This document shows positions 1-36,071 of a stretch of DNA of 36,071 nt, piece after piece. Position 1 is the stretch's first letter, and the number at the start of each line of letters is the position of its first letter. The notes under the pieces were generated by a model. That model was not told where the DNA came from. It made no database searches and worked only from the letters and a program-made list of their open reading frames with translations. The position numbers were made by a program, and so were the translations under genes. Source of the stretch: a virus; the IMG/VR virus record IMGVR_UViG_3300021363_000003, positions 1-36,071 of that record; one strand, written 5' to 3'.

Positions 1-127
1 GTGAATAGCATGATCGCTTCGCCTGAGATTAGAGAGCTGCGTCAGGTTCCTTTAGCGGGTCGTCACGAAATGTCCTTTTATGCGAAATACGGCACTCCAG
101 CGCAGCAACAATTGGTAGGCAGGCTCT
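1..127. repeat. Terminal direct repeat (circular overlap), left copy
   Basis: These 127 bases are identical to 35945-36071. An exact overlap of this length at the contig ends is the usual mark of a circular assembly. The reading frame continues across the join, which supports true circularity of a 35,944 bp genome or a circularly permuted headful-packaged molecule. Confidence 0.95.
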
Positions 128-519
128 ATGCGCAGATGGGTAATATCGTGAAGGACTCATCTCGTGACTTTGCTGGACAATTCCGAAAGGGTGAGCAGCA
201 ATTACTGCAAGGCATGAAGCCAAACGATTCTGATACGATTGATTCTATGACAGGTAAAGCTGAATCATTGTCGGTTATGAATAAAATGTTGATGGAGAGA
301 TCGCGCCTCACTTCTCAGTATATGAGTCAATATCATATTAATAAACTGCAAGCATCAGAATTTGCTGATAAGAAAATTAATGGTCAGGCTATACGAGATC
401 AAGTACACAATACTTTAAATCCTAAGCCAACGGATGAAGATATTAATTTTATGGCTCAGAAATATAAAAAGACTCCTGATGAAATAAGAACAATGTTAAA
501 AGCAAAAGGGGTGCTCTAA
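1..519 (+). CDS. C-terminal part of ejection/DNA-transfer protein (P22 gp20-like position)
   Basis: This is the 3' part of the gene that starts at 35150. The frame is continuous across the circular join: 265 codons at the right end plus 172 here give a 437-residue protein. The GTG at position 1 is an internal valine codon (context D-V-N-S-M), not a start. The segment is helical and rich in Gln, Lys and Met, with no recognised domain. It lies after a gp7-like gene and overlaps the next ejection-type gene (TAATG at 517-521). In P22 the proteins at this position (gp7, gp20, gp16) leave the capsid with the DNA and form a channel across the envelope. The assignment rests on gene order rather than on a sequence match. 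Confidence 0.75.
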   Translation: MNSMIASPEIRELRQVPLAGRHEMSFYAKYGTPAQQQLVGRLYAQMGNIVKDSSRDFAGQFRKGEQQLLQGMKPNDSDTIDSMTGKAESLSVMNKMLMERSRLTSQYMSQYHINKLQASEFADKKINGQAIRDQVHNTLNPKPTDEDINFMAQKYKKTPDEIRTMLKAKGVL

Positions 520-3796: not shown

Positions 3797-5071
3797 ATGA
3801 CTACATCTTTATCGCAAACCGTTTTATCCCCTTGGTTGACACCGGTACGTCTGGCGTCAACTTCAAATATTTCGGGGACGTATTACAATGGCCCAAATAA
3901 CAATGGTCTCGGTGCAACTCTAACGGTTGCAGCATCTTCATTGACTGTGGATAGCGTTCTCGCTGCTGTTGGTGATCGCATTTTGCTGCAAACCCAAACT
4001 AATACTTACGAACAAGGTATTTACATTGTTAAGAGTATTGGTTCAACAGTGGTTTTGGAACGTGCTGATGACCAACAAAGCATTGAACAGCTCAAGGCTG
4101 GTCAGTATGTTTCAGTCGGTGCGGGTTCTGTTCTTGCTGGTAACTTCTACAGCTTGGTTGAGCCGCTTCCCAATGTCATTGGTGTTGATGCTATCGTATT
4201 TAATGCTGACCCTTCTGCTGGTGGCGTGACTTTCTCCGGTGGCGCATCAACAGCAAATGCTTTGCCTGTGTTCTCTGATACGGCTGGCAACATTAAAGCT
4301 GCAACGACTACGGTTACCTTGGGACAAAACTTCAATTTAACAGGTACGTTCACAGCTTCTGGTCCTATCACCTCTACAGCAGGCAACATCACCTCCGGCT
4401 CTTCTGGTGATGCTGGAACATTTATTTCGTTCCCCGCAACCGCTGCTAACGGTACGTTGATACTTGCCGCTGCTAATGCTGGCGGTGCGTTCAATACGAC
4501 TATTAGCAATGCGGCTTCTGTTGGTCAATCACAGGTTATCTCCATCCCTGACGTTGGCGCAGCAACTGGTAAGTTTATCGTTAATACTGCTGCATTAGTG
4601 AGCGGTAACTACCCAGTATTTTCAGGTACGGGCGGCGTGATCATTGACTCAGGTGTTCCAGCTCAGAAATTTGCACAGGTTTCCTTAACTGCCGCGCAAT
4701 TCAATGGTATGTATGCAGCTCCTGTTCTGTTAGTTGCCGCCCCTGGTGCAAACACCATGATCATCGTTGACAGCATCCAATTACAGATGACATTTGTCTC
4801 TGCTGCTTATGCTGCCGGCGGTGTGGTTTCTGCGCAATATGACTTAACTGCAAATGGCGCTGGTGTCCATGCTTCTAGTGATGAAGCTGCTGCTGACTTC
4901 TTTGCTGCTGCAAGTACAGTCTTTAAATTGAATGGCGGCTTAGTATTGGCTCCGTTCACGACTTGCGCAAACAAAGGGTTGTATCTTTCCAACTTAACCC
5001 AAGCTTTCACCACTGGTGATAGCACATGGAGAGTGAAAGTTTACTACCACTTGATCAGCACAACTGCGTAA
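3797..5071 (+). CDS. Tail fibre/adhesin protein
   Basis: A 424-residue protein starting at ATG after AAAAAGGAC. Residues ~15-140 match a widespread phage tail domain: a GATLT...G motif, then VGDRILLQTQTNTYEQGIY, typical of fibre N-terminal or shaft modules. The central part is Gly/Ser/Thr/Ala-rich with short beta repeats (STANALPVFSDTAGNIKA). The C-terminal ~130 residues form a distinct domain with AQYDLTANGAG and TWRVKVYYHL. It ends just before a strong terminator. It is probably a virion adhesin or fibre component. Confidence 0.7.
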   Translation: MTTSLSQTVLSPWLTPVRLASTSNISGTYYNGPNNNGLGATLTVAASSLTVDSVLAAVGDRILLQTQTNTYEQGIYIVKSIGSTVVLERADDQQSIEQLKAGQYVSVGAGSVLAGNFYSLVEPLPNVIGVDAIVFNADPSAGGVTFSGGASTANALPVFSDTAGNIKAATTTVTLGQNFNLTGTFTASGPITSTAGNITSGSSGDAGTFISFPATAANGTLILAAANAGGAFNTTISNAASVGQSQVISIPDVGAATGKFIVNTAALVSGNYPVFSGTGGVIIDSGVPAQKFAQVSLTAAQFNGMYAAPVLLVAAPGANTMIIVDSIQLQMTFVSAAYAAGGVVSAQYDLTANGAGVHASSDEAAADFFAAASTVFKLNGGLVLAPFTTCANKGLYLSNLTQAFTTGDSTWRVKVYYHLISTTA

Positions 5072-12785: not shown

Positions 12786-13238
12786 CTAAAATGGAACATC
12801 TATGTCATCCTGAAAACTGTCCTTGGGGGCATCGGCAGGTTTCGCCACAGCACCTTCAGATTTGATGTAATCCTTGACAGTATTCTTTGGAGCATACATA
12901 CCACCGTTAGGGTTGGGCTTCCCTTCTTCCATGCCGAGTTCAAGCTTTCCTGCTCTGCCCGGACAGTCTGAGGCTCTGAGTTCACCGGCTTCATACTTGT
13001 CAAGTAATCCCGTAGCATCAGCGAAATGTCGAAGTTTAAAGGCCATAGCTTCCAAGACATAATCAAAGATTAGACGCTCACGACCCATGTTATCCCAAAT
13101 CTTCATCTTGAGCTTTATCATCTCGTTACCCGATTTGGCGACCTGATCGGTAGCCTCGATGACCTGGAAGGAATACTCTCCAGGTTCAACCAGGGCCATC
13201 TCTTGCAGTTCTTGTTCTGTTTTAGGGGTGAATCTCAT
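12786..13238 (-). CDS. SSB-like single-strand-binding protein (DUF669-type)
   Basis: A 150-residue protein, ATG after AAGGAGATAAATA and overlapping the Sak4 stop (TAATG). It has the phage DUF669-type layout, with PGEYSFQVIEATDQVAKSGN and MIKLKMKIWDNMGRERLIFD forming an OB-like half. A flexible Ala/Pro region follows, and an acidic tip FQDDIDVPF closely resembles the DDDIPF tail of bacterial SSB that recruits partners. Adjacent to a Sak4-like ATPase, with which such proteins commonly pair. Likely coats ssDNA during annealing and replication. Confidence 0.75.
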   Translation of the reverse strand: MRFTPKTEQELQEMALVEPGEYSFQVIEATDQVAKSGNEMIKLKMKIWDNMGRERLIFDYVLEAMAFKLRHFADATGLLDKYEAGELRASDCPGRAGKLELGMEEGKPNPNGGMYAPKNTVKDYIKSEGAVAKPADAPKDSFQDDIDVPF

Positions 13239-14095
13239 TATTTATCTCCTTGAGGTTTGATTTTGTTTTCCATATAAGCGATACACTTCACGATCAGAGC
13301 TTCTGGCATCTCATCAAAGGACACAGCTTCAGCCTTGTCTAACCATTTCTGGGTGACTTCTTCTGGTTCTTTGAATATCTCGATGAGGTGCTTTAGGTGA
13401 TCGATCTGTTCTTTGGTTGCCAAAACTTCAGCAACAGCATGGCGCTCCAGGACTTCACGACCATAACGCTTCGCTATTTCCTCATAAGAGAAAGGGAATT
13501 GCTCACCATCAGGGAAGGCTTCTATGCGGGACTTCTTGATAATGCCGACTCTTTCCTTTGGTCCACGCTTTTGAACTTCAAAAACGAGGTCGAATAGGTA
13601 GTCGAGCTTTTTATAGCAATCAAACGTCTGTCCTAAGACCGCCATGTTCTGTCCATACTCATTCTTGGCATGACTGGTGATAATAACATTCATGTCTAAC
13701 CTGAGCAAAAGACTGAGTAAATGCTTTATTTTCTTGTTGGCTTCACTGTAATGTCGACCAAAGTCTGTACCGTTCTTGGCGGCCGACTTGTTCAGAAGGT
13801 CTTCATAAACAATGGTCAAAGGGTCAATAATGAGGGTTCTGTACTCATGTTTCTCAGTGAGCAGGGTTTTTACTTCAGTTACCAGCTCATCAAAGTCTGT
13901 GGTGTTATAGATCACGCCACCTTTTTGTTGTAGTAATTTGACATACTGATCGTTATGGGAACCCTTTTCTGTGTCGATCAGATAAGGGGACGGGAAACTA
14001 ATCGCGGCTGTGGTCTTACCTGTGCCAGACGCTCCATAAAATAATGCCTTCAGCCTTTTTTGTACCGCTTCTGGTTTTACTGCTCTTAAAGCCAT
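13238..14095 (-). CDS. Sak4-like ATPase (AAA_24), recombination
   Basis: A 285-residue protein from the ATG at 14095 (GAGGTGTAAC in front), preferred over an upstream in-frame start at 14131 without a ribosome site. Walker A is GASGTGKTT (residues 21-29) and Walker B is YRTLIID (85-91). The RecA-like core (LIDTEKGS..., VIITSHAKNEYG) fits phage Sak4/AAA_24 proteins, which promote single-strand annealing together with an SSB-like partner. The C-terminal third is helical (ATKEQIDHLKHLIEIF). Likely the phage recombinase. Confidence 0.82.
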   Translation of the reverse strand: MALRAVKPEAVQKRLKALFYGASGTGKTTAAISFPSPYLIDTEKGSHNDQYVKLLQQKGGVIYNTTDFDELVTEVKTLLTEKHEYRTLIIDPLTIVYEDLLNKSAAKNGTDFGRHYSEANKKIKHLLSLLLRLDMNVIITSHAKNEYGQNMAVLGQTFDCYKKLDYLFDLVFEVQKRGPKERVGIIKKSRIEAFPDGEQFPFSYEEIAKRYGREVLERHAVAEVLATKEQIDHLKHLIEIFKEPEEVTQKWLDKAEAVSFDEMPEALIVKCIAYMENKIKPQGDK

Positions 14096-14186
14096 GTTAC
14101 ACCTCTTTTCTTTAGTTAATGTTGTGACCATTTAAGGTCTTCGGAAAAATCCCCTGTAGGCACTACGATGCCCACTAGGGATGTCT

Positions 14187-15640: not shown

Positions 15641-16045
15641 CTATTTATAGCGCCACCAGGCTTTGCGTTCAGGACACCACCTAAAGCCGTGACGCTTCAG
15701 CCTTTCCTTATAGCCAAAGGTCTTGCCGGTTACCCATATCTTCATATCGGCTGGATTATTGGAGACGTGGAGGCCGTAGCTTTTGATCTCACTGATGTCA
15801 TCAGGGTCTTTGGATTTGCGCCCTGGGCGCGGCGCTGTGTGGTCATCGAAGAGAACATAGTCCGGGACCTTGGCTAAACAGTCATAGGCGCTATTTACAT
15901 CCTGCATTTTTCTAAGACCCGCTGCGTTCCGGTCAGGATGGTAGCGTGATGCCAACCTCCGATAGGAGTCCTTAATAGCCTTCCTTGTTACTACTTGACC
16001 CATCAATTCCATGACGGTCAATGCTTCCGCTACACTCATAGCCAT
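15641..16045 (-). CDS. J-domain (DnaJ-like) protein
   Basis: A 134-residue protein, first gene of the leftward operon, ATG after AAAGGATTTAATGAC. Residues ~5-60 form a J domain with the intact HPD motif (RRLASRYHPDRN, HPD at 36-38), which stimulates DnaK ATPase. No G/F or zinc-finger region follows. Instead a C-terminal segment ending LKRHGFRWCPERKAWWRYK resembles the short GxRWxPExKxW motif found in several phage and plasmid proteins. In lambda, host DnaJ/DnaK remodels the initiator-helicase complex; this phage may bring its own J protein for a similar step. The latter is inference. Confidence 0.85.
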   Translation of the reverse strand: MAMSVAEALTVMELMGQVVTRKAIKDSYRRLASRYHPDRNAAGLRKMQDVNSAYDCLAKVPDYVLFDDHTAPRPGRKSKDPDDISEIKSYGLHVSNNPADMKIWVTGKTFGYKERLKRHGFRWCPERKAWWRYK

Positions 16046-16332: not shown

Positions 16333-16412
16333 AAGATTGGGTGGGATGCAAAGGATTGCGCAACTGCTTAGGAACAATGGGCATAGTTTGCCGCTACGCC
16401 CACTTCAATCTT
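16333..16412 (+). ncRNA. Structured intergenic element, possible three-way junction
   Basis: AAGATTG (16333-16339) pairs with CAATCTT (16406-16412), and GTGGG (16341-16345) with CCCAC (16399-16403). Inside, TGCAA-AGGA-TTGCG (16347-16360) and GGCA-TAGTT-TGCC (16380-16392) form two hairpins. The closed structure lies in the 165-bp gap before the replication initiator gene. No known riboswitch or ribozyme core was recognised. It could be a cis-regulatory RNA or a DNA structure used in replication. Confidence 0.5.
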
Positions 16413-16443: not shown

Positions 16444-16479
16444 ATGACTCACAATAATTCACATAAGGAAATATCATGA
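16444..16479 (+). CDS. 11-residue leader peptide coupled to the initiator gene
   Basis: ATG at 16444 follows AAGGATGAATC. The frame MTHNNSHKEIS ends at a TGA that overlaps the ATG of the next gene (ATGA), while AAGGAAATATC for the next gene lies inside it. This arrangement suggests translational coupling or leader control of initiator synthesis. Too short for sequence proof. Confidence 0.4.
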   Translation: MTHNNSHKEIS

Positions 16480-17054
16480 AGCACGATTTTAACACGCTCC
16501 ACCTGTTCTGGGCAATCCGAAATATTCCTTCCAGTATTTTAAATATCCAAGAAAGAATGATTTTATTAATGCTCCTAAATTGTGCCGGTGCTGAGAATCG
16601 CTCTTGGCATGGGCAAGCCTCTCTCGCTGAAATGTGTTCCCTCTCTGAGACCTCTATTAAGAAATATTCCAAAGCGCTTGTACAAAAAGGGTTCGTTATT
16701 ATTCACAACCCCGTGACCTACGGCAGGTCAATTTGTAACCAATATGAGTTGGTCATTGACCACATTATGGCGTTCGCCAGAGACCAAAAGGGGTCGCGGG
16801 ACGATACCTTTACAGATCAAAAGGGGTCGCGCGGCGAGAGAAAGGGGTCGCCGCGCGACTCCGAAAGGGGTCGTGGCGCGACTACTAAGAATAAAATAGA
16901 AGAAAGAAAGAAGAAGGGGTCTTCGAGCGGCGTTGGAGCGCCGCCTTCGCCCCCTCCCGCACCTGAGCGTATTGGAGTGCCTTGCCCGCCAGAGATCAGC
17001 GCAAGGTTTGATGAAATTTTTAATCGGCGTGGTCGCAAGCAAACAGCTCACTAG
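16476..17054 (+). CDS. Replication initiator with winged-helix domain (lambda O-like role)
   Basis: A 192-residue protein. Residues 1-90 form a winged-helix-type domain: IRNIPSSILNIQERMILLML, a QASLAEMCSLSETSIKKYSK recognition helix, ALVQKGFVII wing. Residues ~105-145 are a low-complexity charged linker (repeated QKGSR / RKGSP) encoded by the iteron repeats. A Pro-rich segment and a short conserved-looking end (PCPPEISARFDEIFNRRG) follow; the end could contact the helicase. It precedes dnaB by 8 bp. Iterons inside the gene mirror lambda O and its origin. Probably binds the origin and helps load DnaB. Confidence 0.75.
   Translation: MKHDFNTLHLFWAIRNIPSSILNIQERMILLMLLNCAGAENRSWHGQASLAEMCSLSETSIKKYSKALVQKGFVIIHNPVTYGRSICNQYELVIDHIMAFARDQKGSRDDTFTDQKGSRGERKGSPRDSERGRGATTKNKIEERKKKGSSSGVGAPPSPPPAPERIGVPCPPEISARFDEIFNRRGRKQTAH
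16786..16925 (+). other. Candidate replication origin: iterons plus purine-rich AT tract
   Basis: The core AAAGGGGTCG occurs at 16787, 16820, 16841 and 16864, with a diverged fifth copy (AAGGGGTC) at 16914. The GC-rich iterons are followed by a T-poor, A-rich stretch (16881-16915, ACTACTAAGAATAAAATAGA...) suited to unwinding. The array lies inside the initiator gene, as in lambda. Spacings are 33, 21, 23 and about 49 bp. Confidence 0.7.
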
Positions 17055-17062
17055 GAAAATTG

Positions 17063-18346
17063 ATGAAAAACCAGAAAGCGCTCATGGCAGAGACAGCCGT
17101 CATTGGCTGTATGTTGACCCACAATGAATATTTGGATGACGTTTTAGCCGAGCTCAAGGAAGAGGACTTTGACACCTACTTTCTGAAGCGCACCTTTGTG
17201 GCTATTACGGAGATGCGCAAACGCGACCCGCGCCAGGCCATCGACATTATCACCGTCACCGCGTTCATGAAGACCCTGCACAACGAGACAGAGAGCTATA
17301 TTTTCACTGAGCTTGCCGATGTCGCGCTTTATTCCTATACAGCCGCCAATCTCAAGGGTTACATGGAGATGGTTAAAAAAGAGTCTAACAAACGAAAAAC
17401 TGCACAACTATTAACCATGTCAGCGCAAAAGATAGCGAATGATGATGCGGATTACCTGGATTACATTCGCAATGGATTAACCCACATCGAGAACAACTGC
17501 CCCTTTGTGGTGACGCCCTTTGGGGATTTACTGGACCAGGTGATAACCAAGCTTGAAGAGGACAGCTCGAAGGGAGGTGGCCTGACTGGCCTGGCGACAG
17601 GCTTTTTGGACCTGGACGACTACACAAACGGCCTTCAGCCTGGCGACCTCATCATCCTCGCAGCGAGGCCCTCCGTGGGGAAGAGTGTCCTGATGCTGAA
17701 CATCGCCGAGAACATTGGCCTGATTAAAACCCGGGAACCCACGGTCATATTCAGCCTTGAGATGCCCGCCGCTCAGCTCATCAAGCGCTCTCTGAGCCGC
17801 ATGAGCCGCGTGAGTGGAACTGATTTATTTAAGGCCAAGGTGACGGGTCAGGACTGGATAGACATGGCTCCAGCCATTGAGCGCATGAGGGAGTCGAAGC
17901 TCTTTATCAACGATTCATCGCGACTCTCAACCTACCAGATGCGCTCCTACTGCCGGAAGATTCGCAACGACCACGGCCTGAAAGTGGTGTTTATTGATTA
18001 CATCGGCCTGATGGATGGCGAAGGGGAGAACGAGACACTGCGCCTTGGAAACATCTCGCGCGACCTGAAAGCATTGGCGAAGGATTTTGATATACCCGTG
18101 TTTGTTTTGTGTCAGTTGAACCGCAAGATTGAAGACCGCCAGGACCGCACGCCCCGTTTGTCAGACATTCGTCAGTCGGGGAATATTGAGCAAGATGCAG
18201 ATATTGTGATGTTCTTAGACCGTGAAAAGAATGATTCTCCTCAAGCCAGACTCACGATTGCCAAGCACCGGAATGGCCGACTTGGAGAAATTACTTTAGC
18301 GTTGGATTTACAACACTTTGAGTTTAAAGATCACATTAAGTTCTAG
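17063..18346 (+). CDS. dnaB: Replicative DNA helicase, DnaB family
   Basis: A 427-residue protein from the ATG at 17063 (AGGAAAATTG in front). The N-terminal helical domain (residues ~1-105, AETAVIGCMLTHNEYLDDVL) matches DnaB N-domains. The RecA-like ATPase has Walker A ARPSVGKS (201-208) and Walker B VVFIDY (308-313), then the SRDLKALAKDFDIPVFVLCQ and RLSDIRQSGNIEQDADIVMF motifs. The hexameric helicase unwinds DNA at the fork. No phage polymerase was found, so it should recruit host polymerase. The gene is visibly GC-richer than its neighbours, which may mark recent transfer. Confidence 0.95.
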   Translation: MKNQKALMAETAVIGCMLTHNEYLDDVLAELKEEDFDTYFLKRTFVAITEMRKRDPRQAIDIITVTAFMKTLHNETESYIFTELADVALYSYTAANLKGYMEMVKKESNKRKTAQLLTMSAQKIANDDADYLDYIRNGLTHIENNCPFVVTPFGDLLDQVITKLEEDSSKGGGLTGLATGFLDLDDYTNGLQPGDLIILAARPSVGKSVLMLNIAENIGLIKTREPTVIFSLEMPAAQLIKRSLSRMSRVSGTDLFKAKVTGQDWIDMAPAIERMRESKLFINDSSRLSTYQMRSYCRKIRNDHGLKVVFIDYIGLMDGEGENETLRLGNISRDLKALAKDFDIPVFVLCQLNRKIEDRQDRTPRLSDIRQSGNIEQDADIVMFLDREKNDSPQARLTIAKHRNGRLGEITLALDLQHFEFKDHIKF

Positions 18347-35149: not shown

Positions 35150-36071
35150 ATGGCATTACCATTACCAAAAGTAGTAGCTGATACCCTCCCTGGAGGCCCT
35201 CTCGTCACGTCTATGCGCGGCATGAACGCGTTAGCTGATGACATGCTGTCTAATAAAATAAAGGGCGTACAGGCTGATTATGCGCCTTTAACCACGCAAG
35301 CAGACGCGGCATCGAAACTCGCCTATGCAAATCTGATGGGGCCGCAATTTTTGGCAAAGTTAATGGGTAATTCTGATGTGGTGGCAAATAGCCCTCAACT
35401 CCAAGACCCTCGCACTGTTCAGAAGCTTTATCAAGCTGGCATGGGACAAGGTACGGGGAACGCTTTAATGAATATGCCAGGTCATCCCGCGCAAAATCAA
35501 AATTCGCTGTCTAATTGGCTGACGGATAAGATCAAAGGGATTATTGGTGGCGAACAAGGTCAAGGTGGTGCTCCGCAACAAGCGCCGCAGCCACTTCAAC
35601 CGCAGCAACAAATGCCTCAATATCAGCCACAGCCTCAGCAGCAACCTAATGCTTTGGCACAAGGGCCTGCGCCCATTAATCAGGCTAATATGTCTCCACA
35701 AGACAGAAATGCAATGAACACCATGCAGCCTGGCGACTCTTATGTTATTCAAGGTAATCAGCCCAATCCAAATGCGCTTTCTGGCCCTCCTCCTCAAGCA
35801 CCAAAAACTTATGCTGAAAATGCAGGCACTTTCAAAGGTACTGTGGCAGAAGGTGAAGAAGCTGGAAAACTTCGCGCTAAAGACATTCAAGATCTGAATG
35901 ACGTAGTTTTCAATGCTGAGACCAAGCAAGCCACACTGGATGATGTGAATAGCATGATCGCTTCGCCTGAGATTAGAGAGCTGCGTCAGGTTCCTTTAGC
36001 GGGTCGTCACGAAATGTCCTTTTATGCGAAATACGGCACTCCAGCGCAGCAACAATTGGTAGGCAGGCTCT
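35150..36071 (+). CDS. N-terminal part of ejection protein (P22 gp20-like position)
   Basis: ATG at 35150 after AAGGATTGAATC; the frame stays open to the contig end and continues at base 1 of the window (ends 519), giving 437 residues. The N-terminus (ALPLPKVVADTLPGGPLVTS) is followed by a helical region, a Gln/Pro-rich linker (residues ~140-175, PQQAPQPLQPQQQMPQYQPQ) and a helical C-terminus. Bases 35945-36071 duplicate 1-127, so only 35150-35944 is unique here. Ejection role is from gene order. Confidence 0.75.
   Translation, partial: MALPLPKVVADTLPGGPLVTSMRGMNALADDMLSNKIKGVQADYAPLTTQADAASKLAYANLMGPQFLAKLMGNSDVVANSPQLQDPRTVQKLYQAGMGQGTGNALMNMPGHPAQNQNSLSNWLTDKIKGIIGGEQGQGGAPQQAPQPLQPQQQMPQYQPQPQQQPNALAQGPAPINQANMSPQDRNAMNTMQPGDSYVIQGNQPNPNALSGPPPQAPKTYAENAGTFKGTVAEGEEAGKLRAKDIQDLNDVVFNAETKQATLDDVNSMIASPEIRELRQVPLAGRHEMSFYAKYGTPAQQQLVGRL
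35945..36071. repeat. Terminal direct repeat (circular overlap), right copy
   Basis: Identical to bases 1-127 and in frame with them. Remove one copy to obtain the 35,944 bp circle. Confidence 0.95.

Follow-up and report, generated by a model that had tools for sequence, protein, structure and literature searches.

The replication origin of bacteriophage lambda lies within the gene of its initiator, the O protein. O dimers bind the lambda iterons, each an imperfect inverted repeat (PMC7466680, PMC5043065), and binding of O opens an adjoining A+T-rich tract of ∼40 bp (PMC7466680, PMC5043065, PMC3349717). The annotated lambda and P22 origins serve here as controls and were processed with the same scripts as the locus under study. 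In lambda, the four annotated iterons are recovered at gaps of 20/24/23 bp from codon 118 onward, and in P22 a four-copy array with identical gaps starts at codon 120 of gene 18 within the annotated origin; a tract that is A-rich on the coding strand follows the array in each. The DNA-binding parts of the two initiators are ∼48% identical, while the iteron words are unrelated.

The window, meaning the whole 36,071-base stretch of DNA analysed, covers positions 1-36,071 of IMG/VR virus record IMGVR_UViG_3300021363_000003 and derives from an uncultured phage. The contig closes on itself through a perfect 127-bp direct repeat at its two termini (Table 1), so that it probably represents the whole genome of the phage, assembled as a circle. 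One gene reading at the left end probably spans the circular join. The phage encodes a P22-like portal, terminase, and major head protein. Its early genes (8.3-16.0 kb) form a leftward block facing a rightward block that runs from 16.1 kb, and the initiator gene is the second gene of the latter. The leftward early block opens with a gene for a DnaJ-domain protein, and a similar gene occurs in the nearest relative; since host DnaJ is used in lambda replication, a link of this protein to primosome remodelling is conceivable. The genome also carries a gene for a Sak4-like single-strand annealing/recombination ATPase, which is very widespread in the phage group (282 relatives matched) and adjoins a gene for a DUF669 protein.

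The segment 16787-16918 is very probably a lambda/P22-type replication origin of this phage, set within the codons of the initiator linker. The preliminary description placed four iterons and a degenerate fifth copy where a winged-helix gene codes for the linker, and the four iterons are borne out: AAAGGGGTCG occurs in four exact copies on the + strand at gaps of 33/21/23 bp and nowhere else in the 36-kb genome on either strand. The array occupies the part of the gene that codes for residues ∼104-135, which is mostly unstructured according to AlphaFold2. The repeat unit is longer than first noted and extends over 18 bp as AAAGGGGTCG-N5-CGA. All four copies have GTCG-N5-CGA in common, and copies 3 and 4 have the dyad GTCG-N5-CGAC in perfect form, copies 1 and 2 in imperfect form. 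The fifth copy is 49 bp away from copy 4, on the far side of the A-rich tract; it lacks the dyad, and no counterpart was noticed in the nearest relative. A search for two AAGGGGTCG within 35 bp was set aside, as it matched 45 viral contigs, which is about chance by a rough estimate; none of its matches was traced to an initiator, and the match with the most copies (L036) does not lie in one.

Table 1. Coordinates of features in the window.
Feature	Position	Strand	Remarks
Terminal direct repeat, left	1..127		perfect, 127 bp
Gene reading at left end	1..519		probably spans circular join
DUF669 protein gene	12786..13238		adjoins Sak4-like gene
Sak4-like ATPase gene	13238..14131		annealing/recombination
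DnaJ-domain protein gene	15641..16045		start of leftward early block
Intergenic element	16333..16412		just 5' of initiator gene
Winged-helix replication initiator gene	16476..17054	+	192 aa; Pfam HTH_36 E=1.2e-6; PHROG; AlphaFold2
Iteron 1, AAAGGGGTCGCGGGACGA	16787..16804	+	
Iteron 2, AAAGGGGTCGCGCGGCGA	16820..16837	+	
Iteron 3, AAAGGGGTCGCCGCGCGA	16841..16858	+	perfect dyad GTCG-N5-CGAC including next base
Iteron 4, AAAGGGGTCGTGGCGCGA	16864..16881	+	perfect dyad including next base; other codon frame (ERGRG)
A-rich (coding strand), purine-rich tract	16882..16918	+	presumed DNA unwinding element; codes TTKNKIEERKKKG
Degenerate fifth copy, GAAGGGGTCT	16913..16922	+	two mismatches; doubtful as binding site
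G+C-rich inverted repeat	16924..16949	+	directly 3' of A-rich tract; fold
Phage DnaB-type replicative helicase gene	17063..18346	+	427 aa; DnaB_C E=2e-83, DnaB N domain E=1e-14
Terminal direct repeat, right	35945..36071		perfect, 127 bp

The A-rich tract reported to follow the iterons is likewise present, with 22 A in 36 bases, a content equalled by only 28 of the 36,036 genome windows. By 40-bp duplex stability, the tract ranks within the weakest 3.5% genome-wide and the weakest 2.9% of the surrounding kb. Its A+T content of 67% is modest rather than extreme, and the A bias of the one strand is strong. GC skew, which had been put forward as a check, lends no support to an origin, as the minimum near 16-17 kb follows the change in gene strand and vanishes at third codon positions.

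The locus shares its architecture with lambda, as the preliminary description held. Direct iterons with the character of (imperfect) inverted repeats lie inside the initiator gene, between the parts for the DNA-binding and C-terminal regions, and a ∼40 bp A+T-rich tract, A-rich on the coding strand, adjoins them on the 3' side. As in lambda, four dyad iterons come directly after the DNA-binding domain, the last three copies stand at gaps of 20-25 bp, and the copies fall in several reading frames. The array starts at codon 104 rather than codon 118, the first gap is 33 bp as opposed to 20 bp in lambda, and the iteron words are unrelated. The initiator is also shorter than lambda O (192 versus 299 aa). 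Lambda uses lambda P together with host DnaB, whereas the window phage encodes its own helicase next door. In this respect it resembles P22, in which gene 18 (O-like), with its internal origin, is followed by the phage DnaB-like gene 12. The helicase gene of the window begins 8 bp past the initiator stop codon and encodes N-terminal and RecA-like C-terminal domains, with 31% identity to P22 gp12 and 61% to the protein of the nearest relative.

The initiator consists of a confidently predicted winged helix-turn-helix (wHTH) domain (residues ∼4-100), a disordered linker (108-175), and a short C-terminal helix (173-187), as judged by AlphaFold2 confidence. Its DNA-binding domain and linker match PHROG families of replication initiation and O-like proteins with E-values down to 5e-9 (phrog_270, 5.4e-9; O-like phrog_391, 3.3e-6). 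The preliminary view that the sequences are unrelated to those of lambda is upheld at the protein level. The initiator matches HTH_36 and not Pfam PF04492 (Phage_rep_O), to which the controls lambda O and P22 gp18 match at 5.7e-36 and 6.9e-38, respectively, and profile-profile comparison by hhalign with lambda O and P22 gp18 gives a probability of 0.5%. Direct homology to lambda O is undetectable by Phage_rep_O and hhalign, the initiator sequence cannot be aligned with that of P22 gp18, and the origin is best said to work like a lambda O system rather than to be one. P22 gp18 likewise matches phrog_270 (3.5e-9), and remote common descent of the two proteins is possible on the basis of this common family. 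Among solved structures, no sequence relative was found for either the window initiator or lambda O. A lambda/P22-type origin inside the initiator gene is well supported; systems of this kind are known, and the initiator lineage is new.

A tblastn search of INPHARED with the initiator gave no match, and searches among phages that used only DnaB or only the initiator gave a single close relative. Of the eight loci returned by a scan of genome contigs with the DnaB alignment, all at 34-35% identity, six are from Marinobacter; the four that were checked contain no array. The only close relative found for both initiator and helicase is IMG/VR phage 3300028146_000024, a single contig that appears in the comparison set as L005 and L138. 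The DNA-binding part of its initiator is 44% identical to that of the window, and the DnaB gene again stands next to it. Four direct repeats occupy the same place at near-equal gaps of 32/21/24 bp. In contrast, the iteron word is an unrelated one, AAGGTATGCT, or at greater length AAGGTATGCTGACAGC, with the full form AAGGTATGCT-N3-AGC; its letters agree with the window word no better than those of unrelated arrays do. The relation between lambda and P22 is the same.

The comparison was widened to two sets of 80 loci from the phage group, collected through terminase and Sak4-like alignments. Equivalent arrays are found in eleven other phages of the group, namely the nearest relative and ten distinct phages in which a syntenic winged-helix gene carries the array. 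In nine of these ten, gaps are 21-25 bp, most with a first gap of 29-39 bp. Four copies are present in L105 (36/24/25), L118 (33/24/25), L113 (30/24/25), and L106 (39/23/22), and three copies in L147 and L100 (30/21 in both), L210 (29/22), L097 (24/25), and L075 (23/22). The exception is L072, with five copies at gaps of 17/22/22/22. Arrays start at about codon 98-148, right behind the wHTH domain, and an A-rich tract follows in nine of the eleven phages measured, as it does in both controls. G+C-rich inverted repeats comparable to that of the window are seen by eye in L005 (∼4784-4830) and L072 (∼4117-4140), but not in other relatives such as L105.

The words themselves vary across the group, and each has dyad symmetry like the lambda iterons; among them are GTCCC-N6-GGGAC, ACCAAC-N4-GTTGGT, CGAAC-N4-GTTCG, GTCCA-N5-TGGAC, and GTATT-N5-AATAC. 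Similarity between words tracks similarity between DNA-binding domains (r=0.79, reached in none of 5,000 Mantel permutations). Pairs of closely related phages supply most of this signal, and the rank correlation across all pairs is weak (0.14). Many related initiators have no array by the detector used, and several of them display shorter, degenerate repeats by eye. Four such initiators (L099, L122, L127, and L137) contain short CCGT-N3-ACGG dyads ∼18 bp apart in the linker, which may represent another iteron layout with tighter spacing. The gene that follows the initiator also varies. It is DnaB in the window and its nearest relative, a lambda P-like gene in L113 (4327-4671; PF06992, E=5.8e-9), and a gene weakly matching G39P, the loader of SPP1, in L097 (5196-6098) and L105 (3607-4491), so that the helicase partner behind the origin seems exchangeable.

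A mechanism modelled on lambda would begin with binding of the initiator wHTH domain, probably as a dimer, to each iteron. The four complexes could then wrap the DNA and, when it is supercoiled, help to melt the A-rich tract, after which the initiator may recruit the DnaB helicase encoded immediately 3'. No separate lambda-P-like loader gene adjoins the initiator. Winged-helix proteins are often regulators, and autoregulation via iterons is common in plasmids. The iterons could accordingly be operators through which the protein represses or regulates its own transcription, with replication starting elsewhere; the structural fold matches of the initiator, which are generic winged helices and transcription factors, would suit such a role. 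The sites, however, lie more than 300 bp into the gene, past the part for the DNA-binding domain, with the A-rich tract and the DnaB gene behind them. The family matches are to replication initiators, and the layout equals that of the annotated lambda and P22 origins, all of which makes the operator explanation quite unlikely.

The fold matches also include TubR, a wHTH protein of plasmid partition, which raises the prospect that the array is an incompatibility/copy-control or centromere-like site bound by the protein. Replication would then start at another place, for instance at the intergenic element just 5' of the initiator gene, which is conserved in the nearest relative (L005 4240-4318) as GGGCATAGTT..CTACGCCC. 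This explanation is highly improbable: no gene for a partition ATPase or GTPase adjoins the array, the neighbour being DnaB; the A-rich tract adjoins the array and not the intergenic element; and the element was found among the relatives in L005 only. A shared long outer stem can form in both versions of the element, with some paired changes, and the fold z-score is -3.9 in L005 and -0.7 in the window. It has no match in Rfam. Its position is analogous to that of lambda oop, an analogy of place only.

The preliminary description proposed that the linker, with QKGSR/RKGSP repeats, is shaped by the DNA signal. The peptide repeats hold for copies 1-3, which share one frame and encode QKGSR, QKGSR, and RKGSP; they do not extend to copy 4, which encodes ERGRG in another frame, so that peptide and DNA do not repeat in step. 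In 20,000 shuffles of codon order, at most two copies of any 10-mer occur within 100 bp, and four copies are reached in none of 20,000 synonymous, protein-preserving shuffles of the gene and in none of 20,000 back-translations using the codon usage of the genome. The frame of copy 4 and the protein-preserving shuffles indicate that the repeat is selected as DNA, in agreement with the proposal. The absence of confident AlphaFold2 structure at 108-175 places the array where the protein can tolerate a DNA signal. Slippage that lengthened a low-complexity KGSR linker, leaving the DNA repeats as a side effect, would account for the three in-frame copies, but this explanation is rejected as largely refuted by the reading frames and the shuffles, and by the comparison of phages. 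Among the 12 phages with arrays (that of the window, its nearest relative, and the further ten), 10 have one or more copies out of frame, including the nearest relative (copy 1) and L072 with its 22-bp gaps, and relatives keep the gaps and not the linker peptide.

The conservation of layout across the group, with words switched, is the part of the finding most worth following. Since linker codons hold the site, it moves together with the protein that reads it, and the peptide of the linker can for the most part change as the DNA dictates. A tentative reading, possible rather than probable, is that these P22-like phages from the environment share an origin built as a fixed scaffold, in which four sites are spaced by one long gap and then two of 21-25 bp and lead into an A-rich tract, with a linker that tolerates different reading frames. 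The word would be swapped wholesale together with the wHTH domain, and the geometry would be what melting requires, outweighing sequence and even the detectable homology of the initiator. The partners behind such an origin, whether the phage's own DnaB, a lambda-P-like protein, or a G39P-like protein, would be exchangeable. For uncultured phages, the layout offers a rule for locating origins from sequence alone: dyad repeats at gaps of ∼21-25 bp just behind the winged helix of the initiator. The phages of the group provide a natural series in which the geometry of the sites is kept while their sequence and the recognition domain change, and this series can be used to study what iteron origins need for melting, how initiators switch specificity, and how coding sequence tolerates a DNA signal.
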